A DNA stretch of 36,055 nucleotides from Lachnospiraceae bacterium (lineage in GTDB: Bacteria > Bacillota > Clostridia > Lachnospirales > Lachnospiraceae): positions 1 through 36,055 of the forward strand of contig JAFRYE010000078.1 in the NCBI GenBank assembly GCA_017441265.1. The letters are read 5' to 3'. Position numbers and translations under genes: made by a program. Positions 400-32,395 of the stretch are shown one piece after another. Numbering within the stretch: the stretch's first letter is position 1; each line of letters opens with the position of its first letter. The notes beneath the pieces are model-generated. The model made no database searches. It saw only the letters and a list, made by a program, of their open reading frames with translations, and was not told the origin of the DNA.

Positions 400-1788
400 T
401 TACCACTCAAACTTTTTCTCGAAGTATGCCTTCAGATCCTCGATCTTCACGCGCTCCTGCTCCATGGTGTCGCGGTCGCGAACGGTGACGCAGCCGTCAT
501 TTTCCGAATCGAAGTCGTAGGTGACGCAGAACGGCGTGCCGATCTCGTCCTGACGGCGATAGCGCTTGCCGATGTTGCCGCGGTCGTCGTACTCGCAGTT
601 GTAGTACTTCGAAAGCTCGGCGTAGATCTTGTCAGCGCCCTCGGCAAGCTTCTTCGAAAGCGGAAGTACACCGATCTTCACAGGTGCAAGTGCCGGATGG
701 AAGTGCAATACGGTACGGATGTCGCCCTCGGCGAGCTCCTCCTCGTCGTATGCCGCGCACAGGAACGCGAGAACCACACGGTCTGCGCCGAGAGACGGCT
801 CTACGACGTAAGGCGTGTAGCGCTGCTGCTTCTCGTCGTCGAAGTAGGTGAGATCCTCACCGGAAGTGTTGATGTGCTGCGTGAGGTCGTAGTCGGTACG
901 GTCCGCAATACCCCAAAGCTCGCCCCAGCCAAACGGGAATAAGAACTCGATGTCGGTCGTGCCCTTCGAGTAGAAGCAAAGCTCCTCGGGAGCATGGTCG
1001 CGAAGACGCATCTCGTCCTCCTTGATGCCGAGGGAGAGAAGCCAGTCGCGGCAGAATGCGCGCCAGTACTGGAACCACTCAAGGTCGGTGCCGGGCTCAC
1101 AGAAGAACTCAGGCTCCATCTGCTCGAACTCGCGGGTACGGAATGTGAAGTTGCCGGGCGTGATCTCGTTACGGAAACTCTTGCCGATCTGGCCGATACC
1201 GAACGGGATCTTCTTGCGGCTCGTGCGCTGCACATTCTTGAAGTTTACGAAGATACCCTGTGCGGTCTCCGGACGGAGATATACGGTGTTCTTCGCATCC
1301 TCGGTAACACCCTGGAACGTCTTGAACATCAGGTTGAACTGACGAATGTCCGTAAAATTATGCTTGCCGCAAGTCGGGCAAGGAACGTTATTTTCCTCGA
1401 TGAACGCCTTCATCTCCTCCTGAGAAAATGCGTCGATGGGCTTAGGAAGCGTGATGCCTTTCTCCTCCGCAAAATCCTCGATCAGCTTGTCCGCACGGAA
1501 GCGCTCGTGGCACTCCTTGCAGTCCATCAGAGGATCGGAGAAGCCGCCCAGATGGCCGGATGCAACCCACGTCTGCGGGTTCATCAGGATGGCGCAGTCA
1601 ACACCGACATTGTAAGGATTTTCCTGGATGAATTTCTTCCACCAGGCGCGCTTAACGTTGTTCTTAAGCTCCACGCCGAGGTTACCGTAATCCCAGGTGT
1701 TGGCCAGACCGCCGTAAATCTCGGAGCCCGGGTATACAAAGCCTCTCGCTTTCGCAAGTGCCACAATTTTGTCCATCGTCTTTTCCAT
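400..1788 (-). CDS. glyQS: Glycine--tRNA ligase (single-chain alpha2 type)
   Basis: This cytoplasmic class II synthetase charges tRNA-Gly with glycine using ATP. The 462-residue protein is the homodimeric (archaeal/eukaryotic-like) form, not the alpha2beta2 GlyQ+GlyS form. Class II motif 2 is seen as [10 protein letters not shown] (about residues 202-211) followed by [13 protein letters not shown], and motif 3 as [14 protein letters not shown] near residue 340. Four cysteines, C90-x2-C93 and C137-x2-C140, look like a zinc site. The C-terminal anticodon-binding domain starts around residue 365. GAGG lies ten bases before the ATG at 1788; an in-frame ATG four codons on is an alternative. Its promoter leaves a leader of only about 28 bases, so no T-box precedes it. 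Confidence 0.97.
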
Positions 1789-1823
1789 AGTGAAGAACCT
1801 CGTTTCTATCGTTATACCAACAT

Positions 1824-1852
1824 ATATTAGCCTTGAAGCGCCGCAATGTCAA
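1824..1852 (-). promoter_or_regulatory. Promoter of glyQS
   Basis: On the minus strand TTGACA (1852-1847) and TAATAT (1829-1824) are separated by exactly 17 bases, a near-consensus vegetative promoter. Transcription would start near 1817, about 28 bases before the ATG. Confidence 0.85.
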
Positions 1853-1867
1853 ATCTTTTTTCCGCAT

Positions 1868-1901
1868 AAGAAAGCAGGCGAAGCCTTATTGCTCCGCCTG
1901 C
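1868..1901 (-). terminator. Intrinsic terminator of ald
   Basis: Read on the minus strand, GCAGGCG (1901-1895) pairs with CGCCTGC (1880-1874), followed by TTTCTT. It lies between the ald stop at 1964 and the glyQS promoter, separating the two units. Confidence 0.75.
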
Positions 1902-1963
1902 CGACATTTCCTATTGATTTCCTGTTGACTTCCGCAGCATTCGGCCTCTGCCGGCCCGCCGGA

Positions 1964-3203: not shown

Positions 3204-4127
3204 TCACTCAATGCCGTCAACTCCGTCACATTTTGCGATCGTGTCGATCGTGCCGTCCTCGTTGTACGCAAACTCCGCCACGCATACGGAGCGGTGAAAC
3301 AGACTGCCGCCCGGCAGCTCGTCCGTGTGGTAGAACAGATACGAATGGCCTTTGTAATCGCACAGACCCGGATGATTCGTAAAGCACGGCCCCTCCTCCA
3401 TCAGAACGCCGCGGTAGATCCAGGGGCCGGTCGGTCCCTCTGAAGTCGCGTAGCCGAAGTGCTCATTTCTCTTCTCACCCTCGGCAAATCCCGCGAACAC
3501 CATATAGTAAAGCCCGTTTCTCTTGTAGAACCACGGTCCCTCGCCATAGGTCGTGCCGGTCATGTGGCTGCCTTTGCTGAAGGACTCGACGGTCATCGGG
3601 ATTTTCCGAACACCGACGCTCTCGTCGATGGAGACCATGTCCTCGTTGAGGAGAACATACCGAAGCTCCGGATTTCCGAAGTACAGGTAGGCCTGTCCGT
3701 CATCGTCGATGAACACCGTGGGATCGATATCGTTCCAGTCGCCCTCATCCACGAGAGGATGTCCGATGTCCGTAAACGGTCCGGTGGGGCTGTCCGACAC
3801 GCCCACCGCGATGGCCATTCCGCCGCCGGTCTTGTGTACCGGGCAGTACAGGTAGAATTTGCCGTTGCGCGCGATGCACTGCGGCGCCCATGCGCGGTCG
3901 TCGGCCCACTCGATGTCATCGAGGCCGAAGATCTTTCCGTGGTCCGTCCAGTTCACCATGTCCGTAGTGGAGTAGCATCTCCAGTCGAACATCGTGTAGA
4001 AATCGTTGATCAGCTGATCCTCATCGTGGGTCGTGTAGAGATACAGCACACCGTCATGCACCATCGGGGCGGGATCCGCCGTGTAGATCGATGTGATGAT
4101 CGGATTTTTGCTCATGAATTCAGCCAT
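3204..4127 (-). CDS. Glycoside hydrolase family 43 protein (beta-xylosidase/arabinosidase-like), intracellular
   Basis: This is a five-bladed beta-propeller glycosidase of family 43, whose members act on xylo- or arabino-oligosaccharides with inversion. The 307 residues cover one catalytic domain with no carbohydrate-binding module. The three expected acids are visible: Asp18 in TADPAPMVHDG (base), Asp135 in NDIDPTVFIDDDGQ (pKa modulator) and Glu196 in TYGEGPWFYKRNG (acid). There is no signal peptide, so it should cleave imported oligosaccharides in the cytoplasm. GGAGGAG precedes the ATG at 4127; an ATG four codons on (4115) is possible. It lies 46 bases behind the PIG-L gene and may share its transcript. 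The exact substrate cannot be set from sequence. Confidence 0.9.
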   Translation of the reverse strand: MAEFMSKNPIITSIYTADPAPMVHDGVLYLYTTHDEDQLINDFYTMFDWRCYSTTDMVNWTDHGKIFGLDDIEWADDRAWAPQCIARNGKFYLYCPVHKTGGGMAIAVGVSDSPTGPFTDIGHPLVDEGDWNDIDPTVFIDDDGQAYLYFGNPELRYVLLNEDMVSIDESVGVRKIPMTVESFSKGSHMTGTTYGEGPWFYKRNGLYYMVFAGFAEGEKRNEHFGYATSEGPTGPWIYRGVLMEEGPCFTNHPGLCDYKGHSYLFYHTDELPGGSLFHRSVCVAEFAYNEDGTIDTIAKCDGVDGIE

Positions 4128-4173: not shown

Positions 4174-6027
4174 TTACTTGTTCCGGCCCGCGCCTTCCCG
4201 CAACCTTTTGCGTCTCTTGGCCTTTCCTCTCAGAAGCCCCGCTACAACAGCCGCTGTCGCGGAAAATGCGCACACCGGTATCGCATATAACAGAGGATCA
4301 ACTTCCTTATCCTTGTTTTTGACGATGCCGCTGTCCCCGATGGCCGCTTTTTCCTCCTGCGTGGGCACCGGTGTGTCCGTCGGAATCGGTGTCGGTGTGT
4401 TTGTCGGGGTCGGTGTCGGCGTATTCGTCGGGGTCGGCGTCGGTGTGTTCGTCGGGGTCGGTGTCGGCGTGTTCGTCGGGGTCGGCGTCGGCGTGCTCGT
4501 CGGGGTCGGCGTCGGCGTATTCGTCGGGGTCGGCGTCGGTGTGTTCGTTGGGGTCAGCGTCGGGGTGCTTGTCGGCTTCGGCGTCGGCGTGCTCGTCGGC
4601 TTCGGCGTCGGCGTGCTCGTCGGCGTGGGCGTCGGCTTTGGCGTCGGCGTGCTCGTCGGCTTCGGCGTCGGTGTATTCGTCGGCTTCGGTTCTTCCGTCA
4701 CAACGGGCGTCACCGTGTCCGTCGGCTCTTCCGTCACAACAGGCGTTACCGCATCCGTCGGTCTCTCCGTAGGCGTCGGCGTAACCTGCGCCTTCTTTCG
4801 CGACGCGTGCTCCATCATATTGTTCCCGGTGTCCTTGCCGACCGTCGTGCGGAACAGACCGAATTCCGCCGCGCTGTACTCATAGTCGTCGGAGACGTAG
4901 AACCAGCACCACTGCTGCGACTCATGCTTCTTGTAGGCTTCCTTCGCCACCTCGAGCGCGGTCTTGCCTCCGAATTCGGAGAGAGGCACGCGCATGTTCA
5001 GTTTCAGTTTATTTTTCCCGTAGAGATGAAAATACGTCTTTTGCACATCCCAGGTGCCGTATTTTTCGGCCGATTCCGGCAGATAGTCCGCATCCATCGA
5101 GTGCTCGATGACTTCCTGAACAGCCGCGTTCAGGATCATGTGGCCGCCGTGGCCGTACTCGCCCTTGATGTCGTGGGTGACGATGACAAGGGGCTTGAAA
5201 CGACGGACCATCTCGCATGTGCTCTTGATCAGCTTGTTGAAATCATACTGCTTCTTGGCGGCGTCAAGGGTTTTCGAGTAATGGTCGTAAAAGTTCATGC
5301 AGACCGGGTAATTGCGGATGCCGCTCGCCCACAGGCCGTCCAGCTTCTCATGCTCGCGCACATGCGCCGTCGACCAGAATTCGCACATGTACACAACCTG
5401 CACGCGGCGTTTCTCCTGCCCGCCGTACTGCGCCAGCACACCGCCCATGAAGAGGATCTCGTCGTCCGCATGCGTCGAGAAGACCAGAATGTCCGCCTCC
5501 GTCAAGGCAGGTTTCCACACCTGTACATCCGCAGGCAATCTACCCTCGGAAAATGCCTCGATCTCACTCACATAAACGTCTTTCTCAATCTTGATCTCCA
5601 CGCTCTTCGCAGGCTCCGCGAGCTCGACATAGTCGTGCAGGAACCCCTGCTTACCGTGTTTTTCGGTTTTGTCGTTATAATGCAATGTATACGGGGAGAC
5701 CGTGGACCCCCAGCGAATGTAGATGCCGTACATCGGCTTCTCCGACGTCACGGTGAGAACTTCACCCTTCTTGTACTGAACACGCGTTTTGTTGGAGTTG
5801 TCGCGCAACTTGCTCTGCGCGCTGCCCTTGGAATTCTTTACCGTGATCTTGAGCGAAACAGCTTCTTTCGTCTCTTCCTTCGAACCGTCCGCGGTTTCCG
5901 CCCCTTTTACGCAAAGGACAAGCAAAAACGCAAGAATAACCGGTAGTGCCAGTCGCACCGCCGGACCCGCAAGCGGTCTGAGCATCCGTCGAAGCCGGCC
6001 GATCCATTGTCCCACGGAAAGATTCAT
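4174..6027 (-). CDS. Membrane-anchored surface protein with PIG-L-type deacetylase domain and long Thr/Pro linker
   Basis: The 617-residue protein has a membrane segment near residues 24-41, a beta-rich segment (about 55-165), a PIG-L/LmbE domain (about 178-390), a Thr/Pro-rich linker (about 430-560), and a C-terminal membrane segment (about 575-597) ending in a basic tail. PIG-L enzymes are zinc N-deacetylases of GlcNAc-containing glycans or glycolipids. The metal motif is STHADDE (His186, Asp189; usually HPDDE) with THDIKGEYGHGGH (about 284-296) supplying the third ligand. The catalytic part should face outward. The start codon overlaps the recO stop as ATGA, so translation is probably coupled. 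The substrate is unknown; a wall or surface polysaccharide is likely. No LPxTG motif is seen. Confidence 0.85.
   Translation of the reverse strand: MNLSVGQWIGRLRRMLRPLAGPAVRLALPVILAFLLVLCVKGAETADGSKEETKEAVSLKITVKNSKGSAQSKLRDNSNKTRVQYKKGEVLTVTSEKPMYGIYIRWGSTVSPYTLHYNDKTEKHGKQGFLHDYVELAEPAKSVEIKIEKDVYVSEIEAFSEGRLPADVQVWKPALTEADILVFSTHADDEILFMGGVLAQYGGQEKRRVQVVYMCEFWSTAHVREHEKLDGLWASGIRNYPVCMNFYDHYSKTLDAAKKQYDFNKLIKSTCEMVRRFKPLVIVTHDIKGEYGHGGHMILNAAVQEVIEHSMDADYLPESAEKYGTWDVQKTYFHLYGKNKLKLNMRVPLSEFGGKTALEVAKEAYKKHESQQWCWFYVSDDYEYSAAEFGLFRTTVGKDTGNNMMEHASRKKAQVTPTPTERPTDAVTPVVTEEPTDTVTPVVTEEPKPTNTPTPKPTSTPTPKPTPTPTSTPTPKPTSTPTPKPTSTPTLTPTNTPTPTPTNTPTPTPTSTPTPTPTNTPTPTPTNTPTPTPTNTPTPTPTNTPTPIPTDTPVPTQEEKAAIGDSGIVKNKDKEVDPLLYAIPVCAFSATAAVVAGLLRGKAKRRKRLREGAGRNK
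4366..4700 (-). repeat. Coding minisatellite, about 24-base units encoding Thr/Pro linker
   Basis: The linker of the PIG-L protein is encoded by a run of near-identical 24-base units giving eight-residue repeats of the form PTNTPTPT, with PTSTPTPK variants toward the N-terminal side. Just before it, at about 4690-4760, a 45-base unit encoding TVTPVVTEEPTD is duplicated. Such arrays change length easily, so linker length may vary between strains. Confidence 0.85.
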
Positions 6028-6830
6028 TCGGATTCCCCCTCCACCGTCAGGAGCATCTCCAGACTCCTGAATCTGTGATCCACAAATTCCTCATACCATG
6101 CCGCGGCAACTGCCCTCATTTGCGCAAGGACTTCCTCGCTCACGGAAAATGAGAACAACTTCGACGGCTGTGTCGACGCGATCACGCGAAGCGCATACCA
6201 CGTCGAATCGTCGAGGTTGTAGTAACCTCTCGCAACCGTCTGCGTCCGCAGTTCATACGCCTTGCGACCTGCCTCGTCGAACAGCTCGCCCGCGCATTTT
6301 CCGCAGAGGCACCCACCGGACGGCACGTGGAACACAAACGGTCCTTTGCGGTCGCGGCAGCGAACGCACTCGTTGAGCTGCGGTCCCTCGCCCCTCGTGT
6401 AGGCGATCTTCATCTCGTAGACCGCGCGCACCAGCCGGGGCTCCGGCTCGCCCTTCGCAAGGGCTCGCAGCCCCGCATACAGCAGCTGCAGCGTCTCGCT
6501 CTCGTCGATGTAAGCTTCTGTCGCGAACTCCGCGAGTTCGCAGAAATACAGGCCGTAGCAGGTCCTGTCGAGATCGCTTCGAAGCTCCGTAAAATAGTTG
6601 TTCACCTCGGCGCGGATCATCGTGTAGGAGCTGCGCCCCTCAACCACCGTGAACGCGCCCGTCACGAACGGCTGCGCCGCCGCCACCAGCGCGGATTTCG
6701 GCCGCTGAGCCCCCTTGGCGAACACGGAGATGCGTCCCCTCTCCTTCGTCAGGACGGACAGCCGACGGTCATACTCGCCCATCGGCATCGAGGAAAGAAC
6801 GATGCCATGCAAAATCGGATGATCGGTCAT
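6024..6830 (-). CDS. recO: DNA repair protein RecO
   Basis: RecO helps load RecA on SSB-coated gaps in the RecFOR recombination pathway. The N-terminal OB fold is seen in GIVLSSMPMGEYDRRLSVLTKERG followed by ISVFAKGAQRPKS. A helical part and a C-x2-C...C-x2-C zinc motif follow (CVRC and CLCGKC). Length is 268 residues from the ATG at 6830, which has a full AAGGAGG five bases ahead and aligns with the family start. A second in-frame ATG at 6869 also has AAGGAG and would add 13 residues. It follows era by 72 bases and overlaps the PIG-L start by four bases. Confidence 0.93.
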   Translation of the reverse strand: MTDHPILHGIVLSSMPMGEYDRRLSVLTKERGRISVFAKGAQRPKSALVAAAQPFVTGAFTVVEGRSSYTMIRAEVNNYFTELRSDLDRTCYGLYFCELAEFATEAYIDESETLQLLYAGLRALAKGEPEPRLVRAVYEMKIAYTRGEGPQLNECVRCRDRKGPFVFHVPSGGCLCGKCAGELFDEAGRKAYELRTQTVARGYYNLDDSTWYALRVIASTQPSKLFSFSVSEEVLAQMRAVAAAWYEEFVDHRFRSLEMLLTVEGESE

Positions 6831-6902: not shown

Positions 6903-7823
6903 TTACTCTTCCGGATCGCGGTAACCGTAATTGCGGATCAGCGAGTCGCTGTCACGCCAGTTTTCCTTCACCTTGACCCAGAGTTTTAAGTTGATCTTCG
7001 TTCCGGTCATCATCTCGATGTCCCGGCGCGCTTCGGTTCCGATCTTCTTGAGCATCGCGCCCTTCTTGCCGATGATGATCCCCTTGTGGGACTCTCTCTC
7101 GCAAATGATCGTGGCGTCGATATCGATCAGCGTCCCGCCCTCGCGCTCTTTCATCCGGTCGATCAGCACAGCCACACCGTGGGGGATCTCATCCTCCAGG
7201 TTACGAAGCGCTTTCTCACGGATCATTTCCGCCGCGATCTGGCGCTCCGGCTGGTCCGTCACGGTATCCTCATCGTAGTACTGCGGCCCTTCCGGCAAAT
7301 ACGAGAAGATGGTGTCGATCAGGTCGTCGGTGTTCTCGCCCTTGAGGGCCGAAACCGGCACGATCGCCGCAAAATCCAATTCCTTGCGGTACGTATCAAT
7401 GAAGCGGAGGATCTCCTCCTTCTTCACCTTGTCAATCTTGTTGATGACCAGAAGAACCGGCGTTTTCACGTTCTTAAGACGCGCCAGGATCGCCTGTTCG
7501 CCCGCGCCGATGAAATCGCTCGGCTCCACCAGCCACAGGATCACATCGACGTCCCCGAGCGTGCTCTCGGTCACTTCCGCCATGTACTCTCCCAGCTTGT
7601 TGCGCGCTTTGTGGATTCCCGGCGTGTCCAGGAAGATAATCTGTCCGCGCTCATCGGTAAATACCGTCTGAATCCGGTTTCTGGTTGTCTGCGGCTTGTT
7701 CGAGGTGATCGCGATCTTCTGACCGATCAACCGGTTCATCAAGGTTGATTTTCCGACGTTCGGACGGCCGATCAATGCGACAAATCCCGAGCGAAATCCG
7801 CTGTTTTCCCTGTTGTTGATCAT
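6903..7823 (-). CDS. era: GTPase Era
   Basis: Era is an essential GTPase that binds the 3' end of 16S rRNA during small-subunit assembly. The 306-residue protein shows G1 GRPNVGKST (19-27), G3 DTPGIH, G4 NKID and G5 SAL. A C-terminal KH RNA-binding domain follows, containing IGKKGAMLKKIG. The ATG at 7823 gives the normal family N terminus, and GGAG lies about ten bases ahead. The open frame continues upstream to 8021 but only as a shadow of the peptidase gene. It starts 26 bases after the M16C stop, and era-recO adjacency is common in Firmicutes. Confidence 0.96.
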   Translation of the reverse strand: MINNRENSGFRSGFVALIGRPNVGKSTLMNRLIGQKIAITSNKPQTTRNRIQTVFTDERGQIIFLDTPGIHKARNKLGEYMAEVTESTLGDVDVILWLVEPSDFIGAGEQAILARLKNVKTPVLLVINKIDKVKKEEILRFIDTYRKELDFAAIVPVSALKGENTDDLIDTIFSYLPEGPQYYDEDTVTDQPERQIAAEMIREKALRNLEDEIPHGVAVLIDRMKEREGGTLIDIDATIICERESHKGIIIGKKGAMLKKIGTEARRDIEMMTGTKINLKLWVKVKENWRDSDSLIRNYGYRDPEE

Positions 7824-16076: not shown

Positions 16077-16206
16077 GCCGCTGTCACCCCGGACGCCGTT
16101 TCACCGCCGGCACATGGAGGACCCGTTTTCCGCAAAATGGTGTCGCATAATGCGTCATCCCGTGAAATTTTCCGTGTTTCTCGAGCGTTTGCGAAACAGC
16201 ATATGA

Positions 16207-17212: not shown

Positions 17213-17271
17213 GCGAGCGGGATCATTTTCCGCACGCATATATCACCTGACGGAAGGAGGAAGAAGCGCTC

Positions 17272-18360: not shown

Positions 18361-18384
18361 TTATTTTCCGAAAAATGCACAAAG

Positions 18385-20321: not shown

Positions 20322-20825
20322 TCACTCGCTGATGGTAATCGGGGGTAAGAACGGTGTTTTATCCACGGAGAGGATTGTCACGAAAAATGTCTCTCCGCTC
20401 TCCATCTGAACAAGCAACCGCTCGTTGACTTTGTGCAGGTAGATGGCCTTGCCGATCGGCGACTCGATGCTGATCATTCCCGTCAAAGGGTTTGCGCACA
20501 CCGTCGTCACGATCCGGATTGTCATATTTCTTCCGGTTTTCTCGGAAAATAAGCTGACCTTGTTGGTAATCCCGACCTGATCCTCCGCCGTCTCCGGCTC
20601 CTGCAGAATCTTCGCCGTGCGGATCATGTTGTCAAGGTAACGAACGCGGCTCTCCAGGCGGCGCAGATTGCGCTTTGCCGCCGTGTACTCGGCATTCTCA
20701 CTCAAATCCCCCTGTGCACGCGCCTCGTTGAGCGCCGTGCGGATTGCCGGAGCCTCATCAAAATTCAGGCGGTCGATCTCCGCCCGCATTTGATTGACGT
20801 CGTCCTGTGTTACAGTATCATACAT
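20322..20825 (-). CDS. greA: Transcription elongation factor GreA
   Basis: GreA rescues backtracked RNA polymerase by stimulating RNA cleavage. The 167-residue protein has the N-terminal coiled coil with the tip motif EARAQGDLSENAEYTAAK (about residues 34-51, including the acidic Asp40 and Glu43), and the C-terminal FKBP-like domain with SPIGKAIY. AGGAGGG lies six bases before the ATG at 20825; the longer frame to 20846 lacks a ribosome site. It is transcribed away from pepF and leads into the AEC transporter. Confidence 0.93.
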   Translation of the reverse strand: MYDTVTQDDVNQMRAEIDRLNFDEAPAIRTALNEARAQGDLSENAEYTAAKRNLRRLESRVRYLDNMIRTAKILQEPETAEDQVGITNKVSLFSEKTGRNMTIRIVTTVCANPLTGMISIESPIGKAIYLHKVNERLLVQMESGETFFVTILSVDKTPFLPPITISE

Positions 20826-20971: not shown

Positions 20972-21032
20972 TGTCAAGATAACGCGAAGTCATTTTTCGC
21001 GTCGGAAAATGTCTTTTTACGGAGGATCACTC

Positions 21033-23451: not shown

Positions 23452-24327
23452 TTATCCGTTCCGTGCGCCTTTCTTCAGGGCCTGCTCCGCCAGGTCGAGA
23501 ACCTTTCTCATCTCCTCTGTAAGGAGTACGATGTCGGTAAGCCGTTGTCTTGCGTCACTCTCCGGAAGATACCCGTAATCAACCCGGAACAACTCCCTCT
23601 TGTCGGTCCGACGGTAATTCTTTCCGGTTGCTCCCTCCAGGCTGTACTCGTGGTCGATTTTGACCGTGAGCCACAATCTCCCCGGCTCTGTCAAAACCTG
23701 CCCGTACCCGAAGCGGTCCTCCTCACTCACGTCATCCTTCAAGGAAAACTCCCGCAACGCCTGCGCGTATCGAAAGCCGTTCTCCGGCTTCTCGATCTCC
23801 GCCCGCATTGCCGCTGCGAGTTCCCCGATGCTGTAGGGGTTATTGTCCGCGACAAATGCCTTCTCCTCCTCAATCATGGCTTCCGTCGGCCACAGTTCAT
23901 TGACAAGCCTTGTGTGCTCTCTGGTCTCTTCGCCGGTAAGCCACTCTCGGCGCTCTTCGTTCTCCGCGCCGTACAACTCCAATTCCCAGCGCATCCAGAA
24001 AACCGCCTGTTGAAACATGCTCATGTAACGACTGTGGGCTGCATTTGTCTCCTCGGGGGTATTCCCCGGAAGAGGGATTTCAAAGAAATCAGCCTCCCTC
24101 TTGGACACGGTCCCGCCCATGTCGTACTCCATCGAATACGAGCCCTTCAGGACTGCCCTTTTGCTGTCATAGCCGCTTCCGATCCACGCTCCCGACGGAA
24201 GCATCAGATCCGGATCGAGCATGCGTATCTTTTCGCCGAAGCCGTACTCTTTGATTCCCGGCATTTCCCGGAAAATCGCTCGAAACGTATCCATGTCCAT
24301 GAACGATACATTGCTTCCGACTCTCAT
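23452..24327 (-). CDS. Protein of unknown function (291 aa) co-transcribed with the opp genes
   Basis: I do not recognise this protein. From the ATG at 24327 it has 291 residues, no signal peptide and no clear membrane segment. It has three parts: an N-terminal MRVGSNVSFMDMDTFRAIF region, a helical acidic middle (about 95-190), and a C-terminal part with strand-like WLTVKIDHEYSLE followed by a long charged helix (about 255-290). AAAGGAG lies six bases before the ATG and overlaps the stop of the fused transporter gene 11 bases upstream, so co-translation is likely. The open frame that continues upstream to 24732 is only a shadow of the ATPase domain. Confidence 0.7.
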   Translation of the reverse strand: MRVGSNVSFMDMDTFRAIFREMPGIKEYGFGEKIRMLDPDLMLPSGAWIGSGYDSKRAVLKGSYSMEYDMGGTVSKREADFFEIPLPGNTPEETNAAHSRYMSMFQQAVFWMRWELELYGAENEERREWLTGEETREHTRLVNELWPTEAMIEEEKAFVADNNPYSIGELAAAMRAEIEKPENGFRYAQALREFSLKDDVSEEDRFGYGQVLTEPGRLWLTVKIDHEYSLEGATGKNYRRTDKRELFRVDYGYLPESDARQRLTDIVLLTEEMRKVLDLAEQALKKGARNG

Positions 24328-24338: not shown

Positions 24339-26813
24339 TTACTCTCTGTTCAGGTAAATCACCCGATGCGCCATCCGGTTCATCACGGCCTCGTCGTGCG
24401 TGATGAAGAGATACGTGAGCCCGAAGCGATCGTGGAACTCCGCCAGCAGGGCCAGTACCTGCTCCTGCACGGTGGCGTCGAGGGCCGACACCGGCTCGTC
24501 CAAGATCAAAATGTCCGGTTTGCCGAGGATTGCCATTCCGATGGCCACACGCTGGCGCTGCCCGCCGGAGAGTTCGGTGATCTTTCGCTCCGCGTATTCC
24601 CCGGAGAGTCCGACTGCCGCGAGCATCTCCTTCGCTTCCGCCCGGCGCTCTTCGTCGGCGTTTTGATACTGCGCGATCAGCTCGCGCCTGCGGCTCTTCC
24701 GCTCCGCCTTGGTGAGACTGCGGTTGCTCCACAACTCCTTAAGCGCGGCTCTGCGCTGCTTGCGCTGCCGGTTGCGGATCGGCTCCTCCAAAAGCCACTC
24801 CACCGTCTTCGCGCGGTTTAAGCTGCCGTACGGATCCTGGAACACCATGCCGATCTTCGCGTCGGTCTCGATGCGTCCGGCCTGTTTCGGGATCAGACCG
24901 GCCAGGCAGCGTGCGAGGGTTGATTTTCCGCTTCCGCTCCGCCCGATGATGCCGAGCACTTCTCCCTCGCGCAGTTCCATCGCGAAATTCTCAAGGACTT
25001 TATTCTCATAATTGAGCGGGTTGCGGCCGCGCCGCCGCCCGTAATACACATGCAAATGCTGCACCGACAGGATCACTCTGCCCTCGGGGTCGTAGTGCAT
25101 CTCGCCGCGGAAATCCGTCCCCGCCAGCGACTGCAGAAGCTGCTTTGTCTCCTCCGCCTGCGGATTCTCGAAGATTTCCCCTACGGTTCCGCTCTCGACG
25201 ATCTGACCGTTGTCCATCACCATCACCCTGCTGCAGATCCGCCGGACCACCGCGAGCTCATGGGAGATGAACAGCACCGCCATGCCGTGGCGTTTTTGAA
25301 GCTCGGACAAAAGCTTGAGGATGCCGTCCCGCGTCTCCGCGTCGAGGGCCGTCGTCGGCTCGTCGAGGATCAAAAGTCTCGGTCGCAGCAGCATCGCGAT
25401 CGCGATCATCACGCGCTGACGCTGTCCGCCGGAAAGTTCCTTCGGACGGCTTCGCAGGATCCGCTCCGTCTCGGTGAGCTCGACTTCCAAAAGCGCCTCC
25501 GTCAGACGCTTCTCCTGCTCCTCCTTCGTGAGGTGAACGTCGTTGTGCGTGAGCATCTCGAGCATTTGCCGACCGATGGGCATCGTAGGGTTTAAGGACG
25601 TCATCGGCTCCTGGAACACCATCGCCATCGAGTCGCCCCGGAGCACCGCCAGTTCCTTCTTCGTGCAGCCGCGGACATTCACCGTGCCGGCCTCCGTGTG
25701 CAGGAGGATCTCTCCGGTCACGCCCGCCGTATCCGGCAACAGTCCCATAACCGAGAGAGCCGTCATGCTCTTGCCGCTGCCGGACTCGCCCACGATGCCG
25801 AGGCGCTCTCCGGCGTGCACGGAAAATGATATTTTCCGAACTACCGGCTGCAGCGAGCCGTCCGCCCGCTCAAACCCCACCGAGAGGTTGCGAACCGACA
25901 AAACAACGTCCCCGTCCTCCGACTCGGTTTTCTCCTCGTCGACAACTCCGTCATACCCTGCCGCCGCCAGTTTTTTCGTGACGCGGGCGCGGATGCGCGA
26001 AGGGCTTCCGGTGTCGCCCTGGTTACCGGAGTAGGCGTCGCTTAACAGCGACACGCCGAGCACTGCCAACACCAGCACAAGGCCCGGGAACAGCACCGTC
26101 CAGGGTGCGCTCCGAAGATAGGACTGCCCCTCGGACAGCATGCGTCCGAGACTGGCTTTCGGCGGCTGTACGCCGAGCCCTAAGTAGCTCATGCCGGACT
26201 CCGCCAAAACTGCATTGTTGAAGCCCACCGCCATCGTCACCAGCAGGGTGGCGCGCAGATTGGGCAAAATGTGCACAAACAAGATCCTTGCGTTGGATGC
26301 GCCGAGCAGCTTTGCGTTGACCACATAGTCCGACTGCAGCTGCGTGCGCACGTCGCTTCGCACGACGCGGGCGATACTCGGCACAAACAGGATTCCCAGG
26401 GCGATGACAACATTTCGCTCGGACGGTCCGAACACGCCGACGAACACAAGCGCGAGAAGGATGCTCGGAAATGCGAGAAGGCAGTCGTTCACGCGCATGA
26501 CAACCGCGTCAAACACTCCGCCGATGTAGCCCGTCAAAGCTCCCACCAGCGTTCCGATAATACCGCCGATCACGATGGTCATCGCACCGATCAGCATCGT
26601 CGTCAGCGACCCGTGGGCCACCCGGGTGTAAATATCCCGTCCGTAGTGGTCCGTGCCGAAAAGATGTTTACAGGACGGGCCGAGATTTTTCGACGCCGCA
26701 TCCATGTCCTCCGGCCCGTAAGGCGACAAAAATAAGCCCCCCGCGATCAGCAAGACCGTCAGGAGGAGAAGCGCGCATCCGCAGATGAAATTGAAGGAGT
26801 GCTTCCGCTTCAT
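24339..26813 (-). CDS. Oligopeptide/dipeptide ABC transporter: fused permease (OppC-like) and two ATPases (OppD/OppF-like)
   Basis: In 824 residues three usually separate proteins are joined. Residues 1-265 are an OppC/DppC permease (FGTDHYGRDIYTRV; EAA-loop region near 165-190). ATPase 1 spans about 303-575, with Walker A GESGSGKS (342-349), signature LSGGQRQR (460-467) and Walker B LLILDEP. ATPase 2 spans about 582-824, with Walker A GRSGSGKS (624-631), signature LSGGQRQR (748-755) and Walker B ILILDEP. ATPase 2 carries an unusual basic, helical insertion (about 680-728) between Q-loop and signature, and stops right after the H-loop with no C-terminal peptide-transporter extension. AAGGCGG precedes the ATG. 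It follows the OppB-like gene by 23 bases. Confidence 0.9.
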   Translation of the reverse strand: MKRKHSFNFICGCALLLLTVLLIAGGLFLSPYGPEDMDAASKNLGPSCKHLFGTDHYGRDIYTRVAHGSLTTMLIGAMTIVIGGIIGTLVGALTGYIGGVFDAVVMRVNDCLLAFPSILLALVFVGVFGPSERNVVIALGILFVPSIARVVRSDVRTQLQSDYVVNAKLLGASNARILFVHILPNLRATLLVTMAVGFNNAVLAESGMSYLGLGVQPPKASLGRMLSEGQSYLRSAPWTVLFPGLVLVLAVLGVSLLSDAYSGNQGDTGSPSRIRARVTKKLAAAGYDGVVDEEKTESEDGDVVLSVRNLSVGFERADGSLQPVVRKISFSVHAGERLGIVGESGSGKSMTALSVMGLLPDTAGVTGEILLHTEAGTVNVRGCTKKELAVLRGDSMAMVFQEPMTSLNPTMPIGRQMLEMLTHNDVHLTKEEQEKRLTEALLEVELTETERILRSRPKELSGGQRQRVMIAIAMLLRPRLLILDEPTTALDAETRDGILKLLSELQKRHGMAVLFISHELAVVRRICSRVMVMDNGQIVESGTVGEIFENPQAEETKQLLQSLAGTDFRGEMHYDPEGRVILSVQHLHVYYGRRRGRNPLNYENKVLENFAMELREGEVLGIIGRSGSGKSTLARCLAGLIPKQAGRIETDAKIGMVFQDPYGSLNRAKTVEWLLEEPIRNRQRKQRRAALKELWSNRSLTKAERKSRRRELIAQYQNADEERRAEAKEMLAAVGLSGEYAERKITELSGGQRQRVAIGMAILGKPDILILDEPVSALDATVQEQVLALLAEFHDRFGLTYLFITHDEAVMNRMAHRVIYLNRE

Positions 26814-26836
26814 GCATTTTCCGCCTTATCTCTGTA

Positions 26837-27810: not shown

Positions 27811-29343
27811 TCAGTTTTCTTTGAAGTACACGGACGCCATATCCTGTACATAAACCGGATAGAACGTGTAGCCCGCAAGCTTCGGGTTGACAGCCACCAT
27901 CAGCGACGGGCTCTGAAGGAATACCGATGCCGCATCGTCGCTCAGGCACTTCTGAAGCTTGTGATAGAGGTCAACCTTCGCCTGGGTATCCACGGTGGCG
28001 ATAGCCTTCTGATAGTTCGTATCAAAGTCCGTGCTTTGATAGTTCATAAAGTTCTTTGCGGAACCGCCGATGTAGTACTTCAGGATGTCGCTTGGCGCCA
28101 GCTGCGAGTCGAGACCGATGATGGTCGCATCGCAGTTGTGTGCCTTGTACACATCGGAGAGCCAGCTCGCCCACTCGATCTGTTCGATCTTCATGGTGAT
28201 GCCGACTTTCTTCAGCTGGTTCACCAGGATCTCCGCCGTCTGCACATGGTAGACATAGTTCGACGGAACCTTCACCGTGAAGGTGAAACCGTCGGCATAT
28301 CCGGCCTCGGCAAGAAGCTCTTTCGCCTTTGCCTCGTCGTGAGGATACGCACCCTCAAGACTCTTGTCATAGTACAGACCGAAAGTCGAGTACATACCGC
28401 TGCCGATTGCAGTACCGTAGCCGCCGTTGAGCATCGTCAGGAGCTCCTGCTTGTCAACCGCGTAATTCATCGCCTTGCGCACGCGCACGTCGTCGAACGG
28501 CTTGACCGCGTTGTTCAGGAACAGTCCCTGAACCAGGCTCATGCTGCCGGTCTCGATATTGAATTTGCCCTTGAGCTCCGACGCCTGATCGACGGTCAGA
28601 TACGGGAAAATGTCGATGTTGCCGGCCTGCAGCTTCAAAAACGCCGCGTCCGCATTTTCCGAAATGGAAAAAGTCACTTTCTGCAAATGCGCCTTGCTGC
28701 CGTAATAATCGTCGAACCGCTCCATGACAAGGCTGTCCATGGGCTTGTACGACACAAACTTGAACGGACCGGTGCCGACCGGCGAATTCGCCTGGTTCGC
28801 ATAGTCCTTCGGAATGATATTACAGGTAAAATACCCGATCAACTCCGTGTTGGGGCTCGAGAGCGTGACCGTGATCACGTCCCTGTCGCCGTCTTTCGAA
28901 GCAGTAATGTCGGAAATCACAGAAAAAGCAGGTACAACTTGAACCTCCGGATCCGAAGTCTCCAAGCGCCCTGCGCATCTCTTCAAAGAGTAAACAACGT
29001 CGTCCGCCGTAACGGTCGCTCCGTTATGAAACTTCACGCCGCTGCGAAGCACAAACTTGTAGGTCGTGCCGTCGGCCGAGATCTCATAACTCTCCGCTAC
29101 CGCGGCTACCAGCTTGCCATCCTTGTCGGGCTTAACAAGTCCTTCAAAGATGTTGTACAAGACTTCTCTGGTTCCTGCCGCTACTGCTTTGTGAGGGTCA
29201 AGACTGTCCAAATCCTGTGTTATTCCAACAACTACCGCTCCACCGTCTTTTGTTTCTCCGGGCTTCTTCGTACCGCCTTTGCAAGCGCAAAGTGCAATCA
29301 TGCAGATCGCCGGGAGGAGAAAACAAGCAAATACTTTCTTCAT
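27811..29343 (-). CDS. Oligopeptide ABC transporter substrate-binding lipoprotein (SBP family 5)
   Basis: This 510-residue extracellular lipoprotein of the OppA/DppA class delivers peptides (or nickel/other ligands in some relatives) to the permeases encoded behind it. The lipobox is LCAC, with the second Cys modified. Family-5 features include LDSLDPHKAVAAGTREVLYNIFEGLV, the YKFVLRSGVKFHNGATVTADDVVYSLKR block, and VRKAMNYAVDKQELL. I chose the ATG at 29343 because AAAGGAG lies six bases ahead and a normal lipoprotein signal follows; a GTG six codons upstream is inferior. It is the first gene of the five-gene operon. Confidence 0.94.
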   Translation of the reverse strand: MKKVFACFLLPAICMIALCACKGGTKKPGETKDGGAVVVGITQDLDSLDPHKAVAAGTREVLYNIFEGLVKPDKDGKLVAAVAESYEISADGTTYKFVLRSGVKFHNGATVTADDVVYSLKRCAGRLETSDPEVQVVPAFSVISDITASKDGDRDVITVTLSSPNTELIGYFTCNIIPKDYANQANSPVGTGPFKFVSYKPMDSLVMERFDDYYGSKAHLQKVTFSISENADAAFLKLQAGNIDIFPYLTVDQASELKGKFNIETGSMSLVQGLFLNNAVKPFDDVRVRKAMNYAVDKQELLTMLNGGYGTAIGSGMYSTFGLYYDKSLEGAYPHDEAKAKELLAEAGYADGFTFTVKVPSNYVYHVQTAEILVNQLKKVGITMKIEQIEWASWLSDVYKAHNCDATIIGLDSQLAPSDILKYYIGGSAKNFMNYQSTDFDTNYQKAIATVDTQAKVDLYHKLQKCLSDDAASVFLQSPSLMVAVNPKLAGYTFYPVYVQDMASVYFKEN

Positions 29344-29393: not shown

Positions 29394-29422
29394 ATCTTAC
29401 ACTCCTTCTTCGGAAAATGCAA
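29394..29422 (-). promoter_or_regulatory. Promoter of the opp operon
   Basis: TTGCAT (29422-29417) and TAAGAT (29399-29394) on the minus strand are 17 bases apart, about 45 bases before the ATG. The -35 box lies inside the palindrome at 29411-29432. Confidence 0.7.
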
Positions 29423-29432
29423 GTATTTTCCG
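29411..29432. promoter_or_regulatory. CGGAAAAT palindrome over the opp -35 box, candidate operator
   Basis: CGGAAAAT (29411-29418) and ATTTTCCG (29425-29432) are perfect inverted copies with a six-base spacer. The -35 hexamer of the opp promoter (29417-29422) lies within it, so a protein bound here would block the promoter. The arms are also the word repeated 27 times across the window, so it may instead belong to that family. Confidence 0.5.
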
Positions 29433-29520: not shown

Positions 29521-30339
29521 TTGAAGCGCAGATTCTATACAACTTTTGCCGTCGTTCTGACGCTGCTTTTCAGTCTTCTGCTCAGCGCCTGCTCGGGCTG
29601 GGACAGCGACCCGACGAAGCGCTATCGCAAGAACCGCACCAACAGCACCGAATCCGGCGACACCGGCGAGGATCCGGACATGCAAAGCGGCGGTTCTTCC
29701 CACGACGTGACACCGGGGCTTACGGTCCGTCTGCAGCGCCACGGCTATTCGACGGAAAAGATCATTGAATATTTCAAGGAAGTCGCACTGGGCGCGGAGT
29801 TCGGCACCAGCGTGGCCGAGATCCACAAATGGACGGATCCGATCGTCGTGTTCGTCGCCGGCACTCCGACGGCGGAGGACATCAACGTACTTCAGAGCGT
29901 ATTTTCCGCATTGAACTCCACTCACGGCTTCCCGGGCATCCGCGAGTCGCGCTGGGAGGGCGAGGCCAATCTGACCATATATTTTGAAGTCAAATCCGAA
30001 TACGATCAGCGCAAACCCTCGTCGCTCACCGGCGACACCGACGGTTACGCCTCCTGCTGGTGGGCCGACGGAACGATCTCCAGCGCGCAGATCGGCATCC
30101 GCTCGGACATCCGCCAACAGCAGCGCAACTCCGTCATCTGGGAGGAGATCGTCCAGAGCATGGGGCTTTTGAACGACTCGTACATCTACCCGGACAGCCT
30201 CTTCTACCAGGGTTACAACGAAGCGCAGCAGCCGACAACGCTGGACTGGCTCATGCTGGAGATCCTGTACCACCCGTCCGTCCGGCCGGGCATGAACTAC
30301 GACAACTGCGTCGCAGTGATCAAAACGATTCTTGAGTAG
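29521..30339 (+). CDS. Lipoprotein with DUF2927-like domain
   Basis: From a TTG start the protein has 272 residues. GGGGAGGG lies six bases ahead, and the next residues KRRFYTTFAVVLTLLFSLLLSAC make a proper lipoprotein signal with Cys24; the longer frame upstream is antisense to the opp binding protein. After a polar linker (25-65), residues about 75-270 form a domain I place by memory in DUF2927. It has the conserved R-N-S-V-I-x-E-E-x-x-Q-x-x-G-L-x-x-D-S block (about 202-220). The placement of that helix is like a zinc-peptidase HExxH helix with the histidines lost, so it may be a degenerate protease. A clear paralogue is at 32474. Confidence 0.8.
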   Translation: MKRRFYTTFAVVLTLLFSLLLSACSGWDSDPTKRYRKNRTNSTESGDTGEDPDMQSGGSSHDVTPGLTVRLQRHGYSTEKIIEYFKEVALGAEFGTSVAEIHKWTDPIVVFVAGTPTAEDINVLQSVFSALNSTHGFPGIRESRWEGEANLTIYFEVKSEYDQRKPSSLTGDTDGYASCWWADGTISSAQIGIRSDIRQQQRNSVIWEEIVQSMGLLNDSYIYPDSLFYQGYNEAQQPTTLDWLMLEILYHPSVRPGMNYDNCVAVIKTILE

Positions 30340-30357
30340 TCTAAGGAAGGAACTATC

Positions 30358-31107
30358 ATGAATATCGAAAACAAGAAAACCGCGCTGGATGACGACGCAG
30401 CCATCTATCAGCGCACACAGGCCACCGAATCCGCCAAATCCGAGCGTCAGAAACTCTCGGAACTTACATTCCGCGGAAAGATGCGCTACCTTTGGGATTA
30501 TTACGCTTTAAAGGCGTTCATCGGCCTCGCCGTCGCTGGAATCCTGATCGCCATACTCGTGCTGGCACTCAAGCCAAGACCGGAAGTCGTCACGTACGTC
30601 TCCTTCCTCGACTGCCCGTGGGCGGACAGCGAGATGACCGCATACGCCGAGGAACTCCTCGATACGCTTCAGATCGACAAATCCAAGAATGAGATTTCCA
30701 TCGACACCAAACTTTCCGCCTACGATTCCAACGATCGCATGGCGCTTTCCACCTATCTCTACGCCAACACGATCGACATCCTGCTCTGCTCCCGCGACAC
30801 CCTCGAACAGATGGCACAAAACGGCGCTCTCATCCCGCTCGACTCCCTGCCGGAGGACATTCTCACCGGCTTCTCCGCGGACGAGATTGTGGTGACACAT
30901 GTGACCAATAAAAACGCCGAAGATCAGGCGGATCATCCTTACGGCCTCTGCCTGGCCGACTCCGCATTTGCCAAGCGCATGGACCCCGAGGGGGAATATG
31001 ACCTCTCGAAGCTCTACATCGGTGTGAGCATCGTGAAGGATGTGCGCCGTGAGGATACGATCAACGTCGTTCGGCTGATGCTCGGCAAGACAATTCCGAA
31101 GCAGTGA
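30358..31107 (+). CDS. Single-pass membrane protein of unknown function
   Basis: The 249-residue protein has a cytoplasmic N terminus of about 50 residues ending in KMRYLWDYYALK, a motif I have seen just before the membrane helix in many uncharacterised Clostridia proteins. One membrane helix (about 53-72) and an outer domain of about 175 residues follow. That domain begins VVTYVSFLDCPWADSEMTAYAEEL, contains an ILLCSRDTLEQMAQNGALIPLDSL stretch, and resembles one lobe of a periplasmic-binding-protein fold. It starts 18 bases after the DUF2927 lipoprotein with AAGGAAGG ahead, so the two form an operon. I cannot assign a function. Confidence 0.7.
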   Translation: MNIENKKTALDDDAAIYQRTQATESAKSERQKLSELTFRGKMRYLWDYYALKAFIGLAVAGILIAILVLALKPRPEVVTYVSFLDCPWADSEMTAYAEELLDTLQIDKSKNEISIDTKLSAYDSNDRMALSTYLYANTIDILLCSRDTLEQMAQNGALIPLDSLPEDILTGFSADEIVVTHVTNKNAEDQADHPYGLCLADSAFAKRMDPEGEYDLSKLYIGVSIVKDVRREDTINVVRLMLGKTIPKQ

Positions 31108-31160
31108 CGCCGGAAAATGCCGATTCTCCGAAAGAAAACGAAAAAAAGTGAAATTTGTGC

Positions 31161-31189
31161 TTGCATTTTTCGTTTACCGGGAGTAGAAT
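31161..31189 (+). promoter_or_regulatory. Promoter of asd
   Basis: TTGCAT (31161-31166) and TAGAAT (31184-31189) are 17 bases apart. The leader is about 100 bases and has a small hairpin (CGGAC-AAAT-GTCCG near 31202-31215), too short for a lysine riboswitch. Confidence 0.75.
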
Positions 31190-31294
31190 AGCGCATAACC
31201 GCGGACAAATGTCCGTGACAGAAAAACAAAACAACGGAGTTCCACCCGCGGAAAATGATTCCGAAACGCGGGGCAGTCTCCGCAGGAGGTCGTT

Positions 31295-32395
31295 ATGAGC
31301 AAATTTCAACTGGACAAGAAACTGCGCGTCGGCGTGATCGGTGCAACCGGTATGGTCGGCCAGCGCTTCATCTCTCTTTTGGAGAACCATCCGTGGTTCG
31401 AGGTCGTGACTCTGGCCGCATCGCCCAGAAGCGCCGGCAAGCGCTATGAGGATGCCGTCGGCGATCGCTGGAAGATGCCGACTCCGATGCCGGAGAGCGT
31501 CAAGGATCTGATCGTGTACGACGCGAGCGACGTTGAGACGGTTGCCGCTACGGTCGATTTCGTATTTTCCGCTGTCGACCTGAAGAAGGACGAGATCCGC
31601 GCCATCGAGGAGGCTTACGCCAAGGCCGAGACGCCCGTCGTCTCCAACAACAGCGCTCACCGCTGGACGCCCGACGTTCCGATGGTCGTTCCGGAACTCA
31701 ACCCGCAGCACTATGATATCATCCCCGCGCAGAGAAAGCGCCTCGGCACGAAGCGCGGTTTCATCACCTGCAAGCCGAACTGCTCCATCCAGAGCTACAC
31801 GCCTATGCTTCACGCACTTCGCGAGTTCGAGCCCACGCAGGTCGTAGCAACCACGTACCAGGCAATCTCCGGCGCCGGCAAGACCTTCAAGGATTGGCCG
31901 GAAATGATCGACAACGTCATTCCGTACATCGGCGGCGAGGAGGAAAAGAGCGAGCAGGAACCGCTTCGCATCTGGGGTCATATTGAAAATGACGAGATCG
32001 TCAAGGCAAGTTCCCCCGTCATCACGACGCAGTGCATCCGCGTGCCCGTCTCCGACGGCCACACCGCAGCCGTGTTTGTGAATTTTGCGAAGAAGCCCAC
32101 GAAGGAACAGATCCTCGAGGCCTGGAAGAACTTCAAAGGTCTTCCGCAGGAGCTTGAGCTTCCGAGCGCACCGAAGCAGTTCATCACCTACTTCGAGGAG
32201 GACAACCGTCCGCAGTGCAAGCTCGACCGCGAGACCGAAAACGGCATGGGCGTCTGCGCCGGCCGTCTCCGTGAAGACGCTCTCTACGACTGGAAGTTCG
32301 TCGGTCTGTCGCACAACACCAAGCGCGGCGCCGCCGGCGGAGCAGTTCTTTCCGCTGAGCTTCTGGTTGCCAAGGGATACATCACCGCAAAATAA
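31295..32395 (+). CDS. asd: Aspartate-semialdehyde dehydrogenase (archaeal/fungal-like class)
   Basis: This enzyme makes aspartate semialdehyde from aspartyl phosphate with NADPH, the branch point to lysine/diaminopimelate, methionine and threonine. The 366-residue protein has the nucleotide site GATGMVGQRF (16-25), active-site Cys163 in CKPNCSIQSY, and His256 in SDGHTAAV. The motif CxPNCS and the ending NTKRGAAGGAVLSAELL place it in the class found in archaea, fungi and some Clostridia, not the usual E. coli-like class. CAGGAGG lies seven bases before the ATG. It has its own promoter and terminator. Confidence 0.95.
   Translation: MSKFQLDKKLRVGVIGATGMVGQRFISLLENHPWFEVVTLAASPRSAGKRYEDAVGDRWKMPTPMPESVKDLIVYDASDVETVAATVDFVFSAVDLKKDEIRAIEEAYAKAETPVVSNNSAHRWTPDVPMVVPELNPQHYDIIPAQRKRLGTKRGFITCKPNCSIQSYTPMLHALREFEPTQVVATTYQAISGAGKTFKDWPEMIDNVIPYIGGEEEKSEQEPLRIWGHIENDEIVKASSPVITTQCIRVPVSDGHTAAVFVNFAKKPTKEQILEAWKNFKGLPQELELPSAPKQFITYFEEDNRPQCKLDRETENGMGVCAGRLREDALYDWKFVGLSHNTKRGAAGGAVLSAELLVAKGYITAK

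Follow-up and report, generated by a model that had tools for sequence, protein, structure and literature searches.

A dense, non-polar eight-base word in a Lachnospiraceae genome as a likely DNA uptake word

The window, a stretch of 36,055 nucleotides from a Lachnospiraceae bacterium (contig JAFRYE010000078.1 of assembly GCA_017441265.1), carries genes for glycyl-tRNA synthetase, the GTPase Era, an ABC transporter, a substrate-binding protein and aspartate-semialdehyde dehydrogenase, and in and between its genes lie 28 copies of one eight-base word, CGGAAAAT (Table 1). Twelve of them are on the plus strand, as CGGAAAAT, and 16 on the minus strand, as ATTTTCCG. A preliminary description of the window had placed the copies correctly between 499 and 31571 and had counted 27 (12 and 15). 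Dinucleotide shuffles of the window (n = 100) gave a mean of 1.77 copies and a maximum of 5, an excess of ~16-fold; hence the excess in that description stood, and its size of about 25 times chance was too high. The copy reported inside the Walker A motif of era was confirmed, with the codons GGA-AAA-TCA for G-K-S.

Table 1. The 28 copies of CGGAAAAT in the window and the features in which they lie (gene strands given as + or - after the gene coordinates)
Position	Strand	Context
499..506	-	within glycyl-tRNA synthetase gene 400-1788 -
3601..3608	-	within gene 3204-4127 -
4260..4267	+	within gene 4174-6027 -
5547..5554	+	within gene 4174-6027 -
6143..6150	+	within gene 6024-6869 -
6296..6303	-	within gene 6024-6869 -
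7748..7755	-	Walker A codons (V-G-K-S-T) of era (GTPase Era), ORF 6903-8021 -
10380..10387	+	within gene 7850-10807 -
11599..11606	-	within gene 10880-12613 -
11689..11696	+	within gene 10880-12613 -
16167..16174	-	5' end of ORF 16137-17147 +; start uncertain
17225..17232	-	between called genes
18363..18370	-	directly past gene end at 18360
20543..20550	+	within gene 20322-20846 -
21003..21010	+	upstream end of gene 21033-22835 +; start uncertain
22404..22411	-	within gene 21033-22835 +
24269..24276	+	within gene 23452-24300 -
24923..24930	-	within ABC transporter gene 24339-26813 -
25820..25827	+	faces 25831..25838 copy, 3-base gap; within gene 24339-26813 -
25831..25838	-	faces 25820..25827 copy
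26816..26823	-	directly upstream of gene 24339-26813 -
28654..28661	-	within substrate-binding protein gene 27811-29361 -
29411..29418	+	faces 29425..29432 copy, 6-base gap
29425..29432	-	faces 29411..29418 copy
29901..29908	-	in ORF 29374-30273 -, not called as gene
31111..31118	+	between called genes
31249..31256	+	between called genes
31564..31571	-	within aspartate-semialdehyde dehydrogenase gene 31295-32395 +

The excess extends over the whole genome of the host (G000; 2.585 Mb in 79 contigs), which contains 1,644 copies of CGGAAAAT, 835 on the plus and 809 on the minus strand. The reversed word occurs 27 times in the same genome, and is a soft control (it begins with TAA). The fuller motif is about CGGAAAATG, and CGGAAAAT is the core of this slightly longer word. 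Among 245 genomes of the class, GGAAAATG reached 651 copies/Mb in the host, and none of the other 244 exceeded 197/Mb, with genome sizes rounded to 0.1 Mb. As described for the window, copies lie inside and between genes, in all frames and both orientations: within called genes 102 are sense and 107 antisense, with enrichment in all three frames, and 285 of 350 copies in a sample of 554,874 bases touch genes. The density is about threefold higher between genes (1.71/kb) than in coding sequence (0.55/kb) with the longest gene starts; our gene caller is a rough one that cuts gene starts short, and the densities are unchanged when the longest starts are used.

Comparison with related genomes, which the preliminary description had proposed, showed a constant word density among related species, with turnover at most positions and different preferred words. 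In 287 kb of alignments with seven relatives, 51 word positions were shared, and 117 and 82 were private. Word positions were conserved at 30%, versus 16% for any 8-mer, at ~74% identity, and in the alignment with one named relative (L001) none of 11 positions was shared. Differences between relatives were gap-free substitutions in 166 of 199 cases and involved gaps in 33, and 14 kinds of single substitution separated word from non-word. Prophages could be compared in one relative (G005), the sole one with portal genes. Its two islands, in which phage genes were confirmed and whose borders were drawn after inspecting where words and GC drop, hold 3 copies in 68 kb versus 6.3 expected; host DNA of G005 holds 30 copies in 52 kb versus 3.3 expected. 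Enrichment is thus missing from recently acquired DNA, as represented by these two prophage islands.

Relatives use dialects of the word around a fixed core. Within the genus, relatives favor CGGCAAAT, and two other genera use different words on a common GG-N-N-AATG frame (GGGCAATG and GGTCAATG; AGGAAAATG and AGGGAAATG), the frame being 4.0 and 3.7 times expectation there and four control frames ranging from 0.6 to 1.0. The GGNNAATG frame was seen in G359 and G375. Two genomes of the same genus (G006, G018) showed no word enrichment (0.8 and 1.0 times expectation). Three further genomes checked for the frame (G376, G400, G473) showed little or nothing, and samples of 20 to 60 kb from seven others yielded values of 1.0 to 1.55, no higher than the control noise of 0.6 to 1.6 (G024, G025, G026, G029, G033 and G036 of other genera or families, G057 of the order). 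The samples of G423 (28 kb) and of G012 and G013 (20 kb each) are too small to judge. Among the named relatives (L001-L080), sampled at 6.5 to 21 kb each and hence for the most part weakly tested, only L001 reached 2.2 times expectation. The nearest named relatives of the host are uncultured rumen Lachnospiraceae.

The host genome encodes a type IV pilus together with genes for DNA import. It has a T4aP-like locus with PilT and PilM, and PilB, PilC, pilins and a prepilin peptidase are encoded as well; PilT scores above its curated cut-off and PilB below its equivalog cut-off. ComEA is above its cut-off, DprA was found, and ComEC is present by its Pfam domain, with a ComEC/Rec2 score of 186.3 bits, just under the NCBIfam cut-off of 190.05. 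ComEC occurs in 58 of 61 relatives and therefore cannot tell genomes with the word from those lacking it. Moreover, the minor pilin is present along with ComEC and PilM in the two genomes of the genus without enrichment. As discriminators, ComEC and PilM were set aside, both being widespread and uninformative.

Our candidate for the receptor is a minor pilin, P0001. A near-identical copy was modeled with a FimU/GspH fold (Foldseek and VIA-align matches), and P0001 has a prepilin N-terminus (PF07963); in the model it thus combines the two features of GspH/FimU minor pilins, prepilin N-terminus and head fold. It falls below the NCBIfam GspH cut-off (equivalog TIGR01708; 31.2 versus 80 bits), sequence identity to the four best chains is 11 to 16%, and the pilin profile matched only the N-terminal pilin part of other pilins among PDB sequences. 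The structure matches listed for P0004 included neither FimT nor ComP. All 13 good genomes of the genus have P0001, and in 12 of these it shares a contig with PilM. Six genomes of the genus lacked a full-length pilin match (five without any, G003 with a 34-residue piece), and four of the six are word-rich (G003, G010, G014 and G020; 79 to 91% complete). Clades of the pilin tree broadly match word class (CGGAAAAT/Mb: A 307-707, B 155-255, C 135-166), in a tree with 4 of 13 inner branches well supported and compared without a species tree. Closely similar pilins go with different preferred words in G007 and G002, and in both genomes the summed GG-N-N-AATG frame (1.46 and 1.43) lies below its controls or barely exceeds them (up to 1.56 and 1.29). 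We dropped the claim of a receptor from this tree because of its weak branches, the missing species tree and the mismatch of G007.

We infer that CGGAAAAT is probably a DNA uptake word, a tag of the own lineage that the type IV pilus would bind, so that such DNA would be imported ahead of foreign DNA. Of the roles named in the preliminary description, an uptake-type word is well supported by density, non-polarity, dialects, prophages without enrichment and the pilus with ComEA/ComEC, and the footprint of a mobile element is disfavored. According to this proposal, a pilin of the T4aP-like pilus would bind the word on free double-stranded DNA, retraction by PilT would draw the bound molecule to the wall, one strand would pass inward through ComEA and ComEC, and DprA together with RecA (assumed here, not taken from the gene search) would recombine this strand. 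An allele with the word would enter cells more often than one without it, and the word would then accumulate by biased uptake, a molecular drive, wherever it is tolerated; it would fade where the sequence does not tolerate it and be absent from DNA of recent arrival. The dialects CGGCAAAT, GGGCAATG/GGTCAATG and AGGAAAATG/AGGGAAATG may reflect receptor specificity that shifts between species. Several observations weigh against the proposal: the two genus members that share the gene set without enrichment, the word-rich genomes with no full-length pilin match, the different words of G007 and G002 despite similar pilins, a positional conservation well under that of DUS, the lack of a strong terminator link, the prophage borders drawn after inspection, and the ComEC/Rec2 score under its cut-off.

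An abundant nucleoid-protein site, or a methylase or self-marking defense site, kept dense in the host genome, would also account for a word that is non-polar, genome-wide and denser between genes, and for phage islands without enrichment, and dialects could track a changing DNA-binding protein. However, CGGAAAAT is enriched in genes, in all three frames and against codon-pair models, the turnover of most positions suits drive better than structural need, and methylase and restriction sites are not generally known to be enriched. We therefore consider such a site improbable.

That the word has no function and merely follows from composition, codon usage or context-dependent mutation is very improbable. 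The sample of 554,874 bases contains 350 copies versus 49.0 expected from an order-2 and 59.9 from an order-3 Markov model. The preliminary description had taken 7-mer frequencies as a yardstick, and an order-6 expectation built from 7-mers does come near the count (302), but this expectation is circular because the same motif inflates the 7-mers. Codon usage, also raised there, does not explain the word: synonymous-codon shuffling predicts 26.8 copies within called genes versus 209 found, and a codon-pair model of a larger sample predicts 49.6 versus 226 seen, although the control words CGGAAAAC and CGGAAAAG agree with the same model (37 versus 39 and 47 versus 43). Over-representation of CGGAAAAT is thus genome-wide and beyond codon use, and a codon or codon-pair effect was rejected. 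Both the 14 different substitutions between word and non-word and the preference of relatives for different words on one frame also speak against a by-product.

We regard a landmark of recombination or replication, for example a Chi site read by AddAB or a word that orients FtsK, as most unlikely. Firmicutes have AddAB-type enzymes and short Chi words, and CGGAAAAT is short and frequent, but Chi, KOPS and FtsK-orienting words are strand-biased, whereas 122 copies of CGGAAAAT follow the majority gene strand and 123 oppose it, in keeping with the even splits in genes and genome-wide. In this count, 60 of 305 words, at loci without a clear majority strand, were excluded, and the majority gene strand stands in for the leading strand. 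The preliminary description had reported no strand bias and had disfavored polar words for this reason, which our counts bear out; Chi, KOPS and other polar words were thus rejected.

That the word is a terminator or another regulatory element, or was left behind by a small mobile repeat, is scarcely credible, in spite of the higher intergenic density and of close pairs that are few and mostly inverted (13 of 15). Most copies touch genes, and density is alike in convergent, tandem and divergent gaps, which shows that the word is not bound to promoters or terminators; convergent gaps tested for an excess showed no enrichment and no strong terminator link. A mobile repeat was rejected because of flanks without conservation past a few bases and of the prevalence of gap-free substitutions.

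A broader proposal seems to us evenly balanced: that rumen Lachnospiraceae have an uptake code, with GG-N-N-AATG dialects per lineage, read by the FimU/GspH-fold minor pilin of the type IV pilus, independent of DUS and USS in origin and limiting exchange to kin. Sequence-specific DNA uptake is known for Neisseria and Haemophilus. Among the open-access literature matches listed, judged by titles and abstract beginnings, none described such a word in any Gram-positive bacterium, Clostridia included, and among the titles listed for the letters of the word, none concerned a repeated genomic word. If true, the proposal would add a third origin of sequence-specific uptake, in monoderm gut bacteria and with several dialects, and thus an independent replicate for the old question of whether sex or selfish drive makes bacteria favor DNA of their own kind. 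It would also point to natural transformability in these uncultured Lachnospiraceae and, through addition of the word, provide a genetic handle on a group in which engineering is difficult.

Among known systems, Chi and KOPS are likewise short, frequent genomic words, and differ from CGGAAAAT in being polar. The uptake sequence of Pasteurellaceae (USS) resembles it in copy density and in symmetry, both orientations being equal as in DUS and USS; it is another word, CGGAAAAT lacks strong spaced AT tracts, and its uptake is putative. P0001 departs from FimU and GspH minor pilins in its low identity and score and as a putative DNA binder. Gram-positive Com pilus systems use ComEA/ComEC. The Com pilus (T4dP) of Streptococcus and Bacillus is described as without sequence specificity and without a ComP/FimT homologue (PMC12153270). 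Our host, also a monoderm, appears to share a pilus and ComEA/ComEC uptake set with these systems, and differs in its T4aP-like locus with PilT and PilM.

Neisseriaceae, the hosts of DUS, are diderm Proteobacteria, whereas Clostridia are monoderm. The two words are unrelated in sequence, uptake of CGGAAAAT is putative, and CGGAAAAT is little tied to inverted-pair terminators, which are usual, though not defining, for DUS. Positional conservation of DUS in Neisseria is given as 71% among closer genomes (PMC2397512), versus 30% for CGGAAAAT, though the species compared here are more diverged. The DUS of Neisseriaceae has thousands of copies, often in genes, is absent from recently acquired genes, and forms species dialects around a short conserved core (PMC3630211, PMC2397512). 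CGGAAAAT likewise has many copies, lies in genes, shows no enrichment in two prophage islands, varies in dialects and occurs in carriers of a type IV pilus.

The word CGGAAAAT occurs 28 times in the window (12 plus-strand and 16 minus-strand copies), one more than the 27 counted in the preliminary description; dinucleotide shuffles of the window give 1.77 copies. Across the whole genome (G000; 2,585,061 bases, 97% complete, 4% contamination, with the window on contig C56) there are 1,644 copies, divided 835 / 809 between the strands. A 554,874-base sample, 21% of this genome, holds 350 copies, and Markov models of order 2, 3 and 6 expect 49, 60 and 302. The order-6 expectation is high because the 7-mers within CGGAAAAT are themselves inflated, and the refutation by 7-mer frequencies proposed earlier is therefore circular. 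When synonymous codons of 345 called genes were shuffled, 26.8 copies were expected against 209 observed. A model preserving both protein and codon-pair use fitted the control words CGGAAAAC and CGGAAAAG and expected 49.6 copies of the word against 226 observed, so the excess holds up under both codon models.

GGAAAATG is enriched to the same degree as CGGAAAAT (344 observed, 27.4 expected at order 2). In a set of 245 genomes of the class, its density is 651 copies/Mb in G000 and never above 197/Mb elsewhere. Genome-wide, 1,042 copies read CGGAAAATG. In 235 copies with full flanks, the base directly after the word is G in 60% and the next is A or C in 76%; preceding bases lean weakly to T (32 to 38% at -5, -4, -2 and -1) and to C (38% at -3). 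The consensus is thus fairly described as TTCGGAAAATG(A/C) with the core GGAAAATG. The frame GG-N-N-AATG has 16 members; in G000, GGAAAATG reaches 12.6 times expectation, and GGTAAATG, GGCAAATG and GGGAAATG 2.3 to 3.1 times. Separately, ACGCCGAC is a second over-represented word in the window (24 copies, 2.5 expected) and has longer forms such as ACGCCGACGCC; these presumably encode Thr-Pro-rich linkers in secreted proteins. The 12-base strings GTCGGATAAGCC, GCTTATCCGACG and TCGGATAAACCT occur 10 to 12 times in the window and loci L081-L100 of G000, where about 0.1 is expected, and form a possible dispersed repeat family.

Copies in called genes are 102 sense and 107 antisense, and relative to the majority gene strand 122 lie along and 123 against it (60 of 305 words left out); the word is therefore not polar, as the absence of strand bias noted earlier had implied. 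Its density is 1.71/kb between ORFs and 0.55/kb within them. Gaps between convergent, tandem and divergent genes, however, have similar densities (1.36, 1.47 and 1.68/kb, respectively), so neither terminators nor promoters account for its placement. Copies are spaced slightly more regularly than random (CV 0.86).

The proposed comparison with related genomes was run on seven relatives at about 74% identity. In 287,045 aligned columns, 51 word positions are common to both genomes of a pair, 117 occur in G000 alone and 82 in a relative alone; one G000 site may enter several of these comparisons. The conserved fraction is 30%, compared with 16% for the average 8-mer (87th percentile among 397 common 8-mers). 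Of the relatives aligned, L001 has the highest identity (83%, over 8.5 kb); no position is shared with it, and six and five are private. The 199 differences include 33 with a gap and 49 single substitutions of 14 kinds, most commonly A versus C at position 4 (16 cases). Density is therefore maintained while most sites come and go; at such identity, either point mutation or recombination may account for this turnover.

Among the 22 genomes of the genus, phage-portal matches (PF04860) were found only in G005, which has two. Around both, word density drops sharply and GC drops at the same place. The two islands (L217-L221), among whose ten scanned genes are those for terminase, portal, major head and tape-measure proteins, hold 3 words against 6.3 expected within borders set after inspection of the word and GC drop. 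In the same genome, 52 kb of host DNA, made up of 32 kb flanking the islands and 20 kb from elsewhere, holds 30 against 3.3. New DNA thus lacks the enrichment.

Coordinates of islands, flanks and additional features
Record	Position	Strand	Feature
G005 C8	40001-56000		Flank, 10 words
G005 C8	56001-100000		Prophage island, 3 words in 44 kb
G005 C9	1-24000		Prophage island, 0 words; 9 in following 16 kb
Window	11697-16166		No words; 825-residue ORF with weak C-terminal cellobiosidase match; perhaps recently acquired DNA
Window	12001-14000		Lowest GC of window (45%)
Window	24339-26813	-	824-residue ORF, apparently a fusion of three transporter subunits; matches to peptide/nickel permease (residues 34-260), OppD/NikD-type ATPase (~325-561) and OppF-type ATPase (649-818)
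L150	10064-18185		Possible Tad/Flp-type pilus locus (gene order, one T2SSE match)
L151	8646-9704	-	Second PilT-family ATPase, apart from main pilus locus

The glycyl-tRNA synthetase encoded in the window shares 98% identity with its counterpart in L001, a Lachnospiraceae genome assembled from a water-buffalo rumen metagenome, and 85 to 90% with the other 79 kept records, 50 of them named Lachnospiraceae and many of ruminant origin. These names and habitats suggest a rumen species of Lachnospiraceae, a monoderm family. A locus for a type IV pilus (L149) lies on contig C30 of G000, with PilB (T2SSE), PilT, PilC, prepilin peptidase, PilM, a small pilin with a PF07963 leader, a second small pilin judged by eye, and three minor pilins with PF07963. 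PilT scores 481 bits (NCBIfam cut-off 319) and PilB 594 (below its 676). ComEA is above its cut-off and shares a contig with ComEC/Rec2 (186.3 bits, cut-off 190.05); DprA was also found. Such a set suits DNA import, yet it is widespread. ComEC occurs in 58 of 61 relatives, and PilM in 52 at E <=0.001, 39 above cut-off; some weak PilM matches are probably other proteins sharing that fold.

All 22 genus genomes contain the word (284 to 1,839 copies each), ten at high (480 to 707/Mb), six at intermediate (205 to 307) and six at low density (135 to 191); in the low-density group, the sampled G006 and G018 are not enriched (0.8x and 1.0x). CGGCAAAT is commoner than CGGAAAAT in G004, G007, G013, G016, G017 and G019, and in samples of G001, G004 and G017 GGAAAATG and GGCAAATG reach 2.9 to 7.4 times expectation. 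Over 200 family genomes, CGGAAAATG is densest in this genus (403/Mb in G000, 293/Mb in G002), followed by G359 (160/Mb) and G375 (116/Mb), each of a different other genus. The top words of G359 are GGGCAATG (45, 2.5 expected) and GGTCAATG (47, 3.4 expected), and those of G375 GGAAAATG and GGGAAATG. The summed 16-member frame stands at 4.0x in G359 and 3.7x in G375, with four control frames at 0.6 to 1.0. Within the window's genus, seven of ten enriched samples give 2.0 to 3.0x, and the remaining three, G002, G004 and G007, fall below that range; control frames reach 1.3 and 1.6 in the G002 and G007 samples. Of four more genera, chosen because CGGAAAATG was well above its reversed control, three gave little or nothing (G376 1.05, G400 1.6, G473 1.4), and the fourth, G423, had too little sequence to judge (28 kb).

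Symmetry, high density, mostly genic placement, turnover, dialects and the lack of enrichment in prophages together fit the pattern of an uptake word, likely maintained by biased uptake with recombination. Against this reading, two species have pilus and pilin without word enrichment. A nucleoid-protein site or a methylation site is a less likely alternative. Recent papers describe uptake by monoderms as lacking sequence specificity (PMC12153270) and uptake as sequence-independent in almost all competent species besides Neisseria and Haemophilus (PMC12040237); no uptake word in Clostridia was reported among the matches listed from open-access literature.

Positional conservation of the Neisseria DUS is reported as 71% (PMC2397512), among closer genomes than those aligned here, and the 30% for the G000 word at about 74% identity falls below it, which also counts against the uptake reading. 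Close word pairs (<60 bases apart) are inverted in 13 of 15 cases, which is faintly reminiscent of how Neisseria uptake words occur in pairs. The dialects of this genus and of G359 and G375 resemble those of Neisseriaceae, where eight words are built on one common core (PMC3630211).
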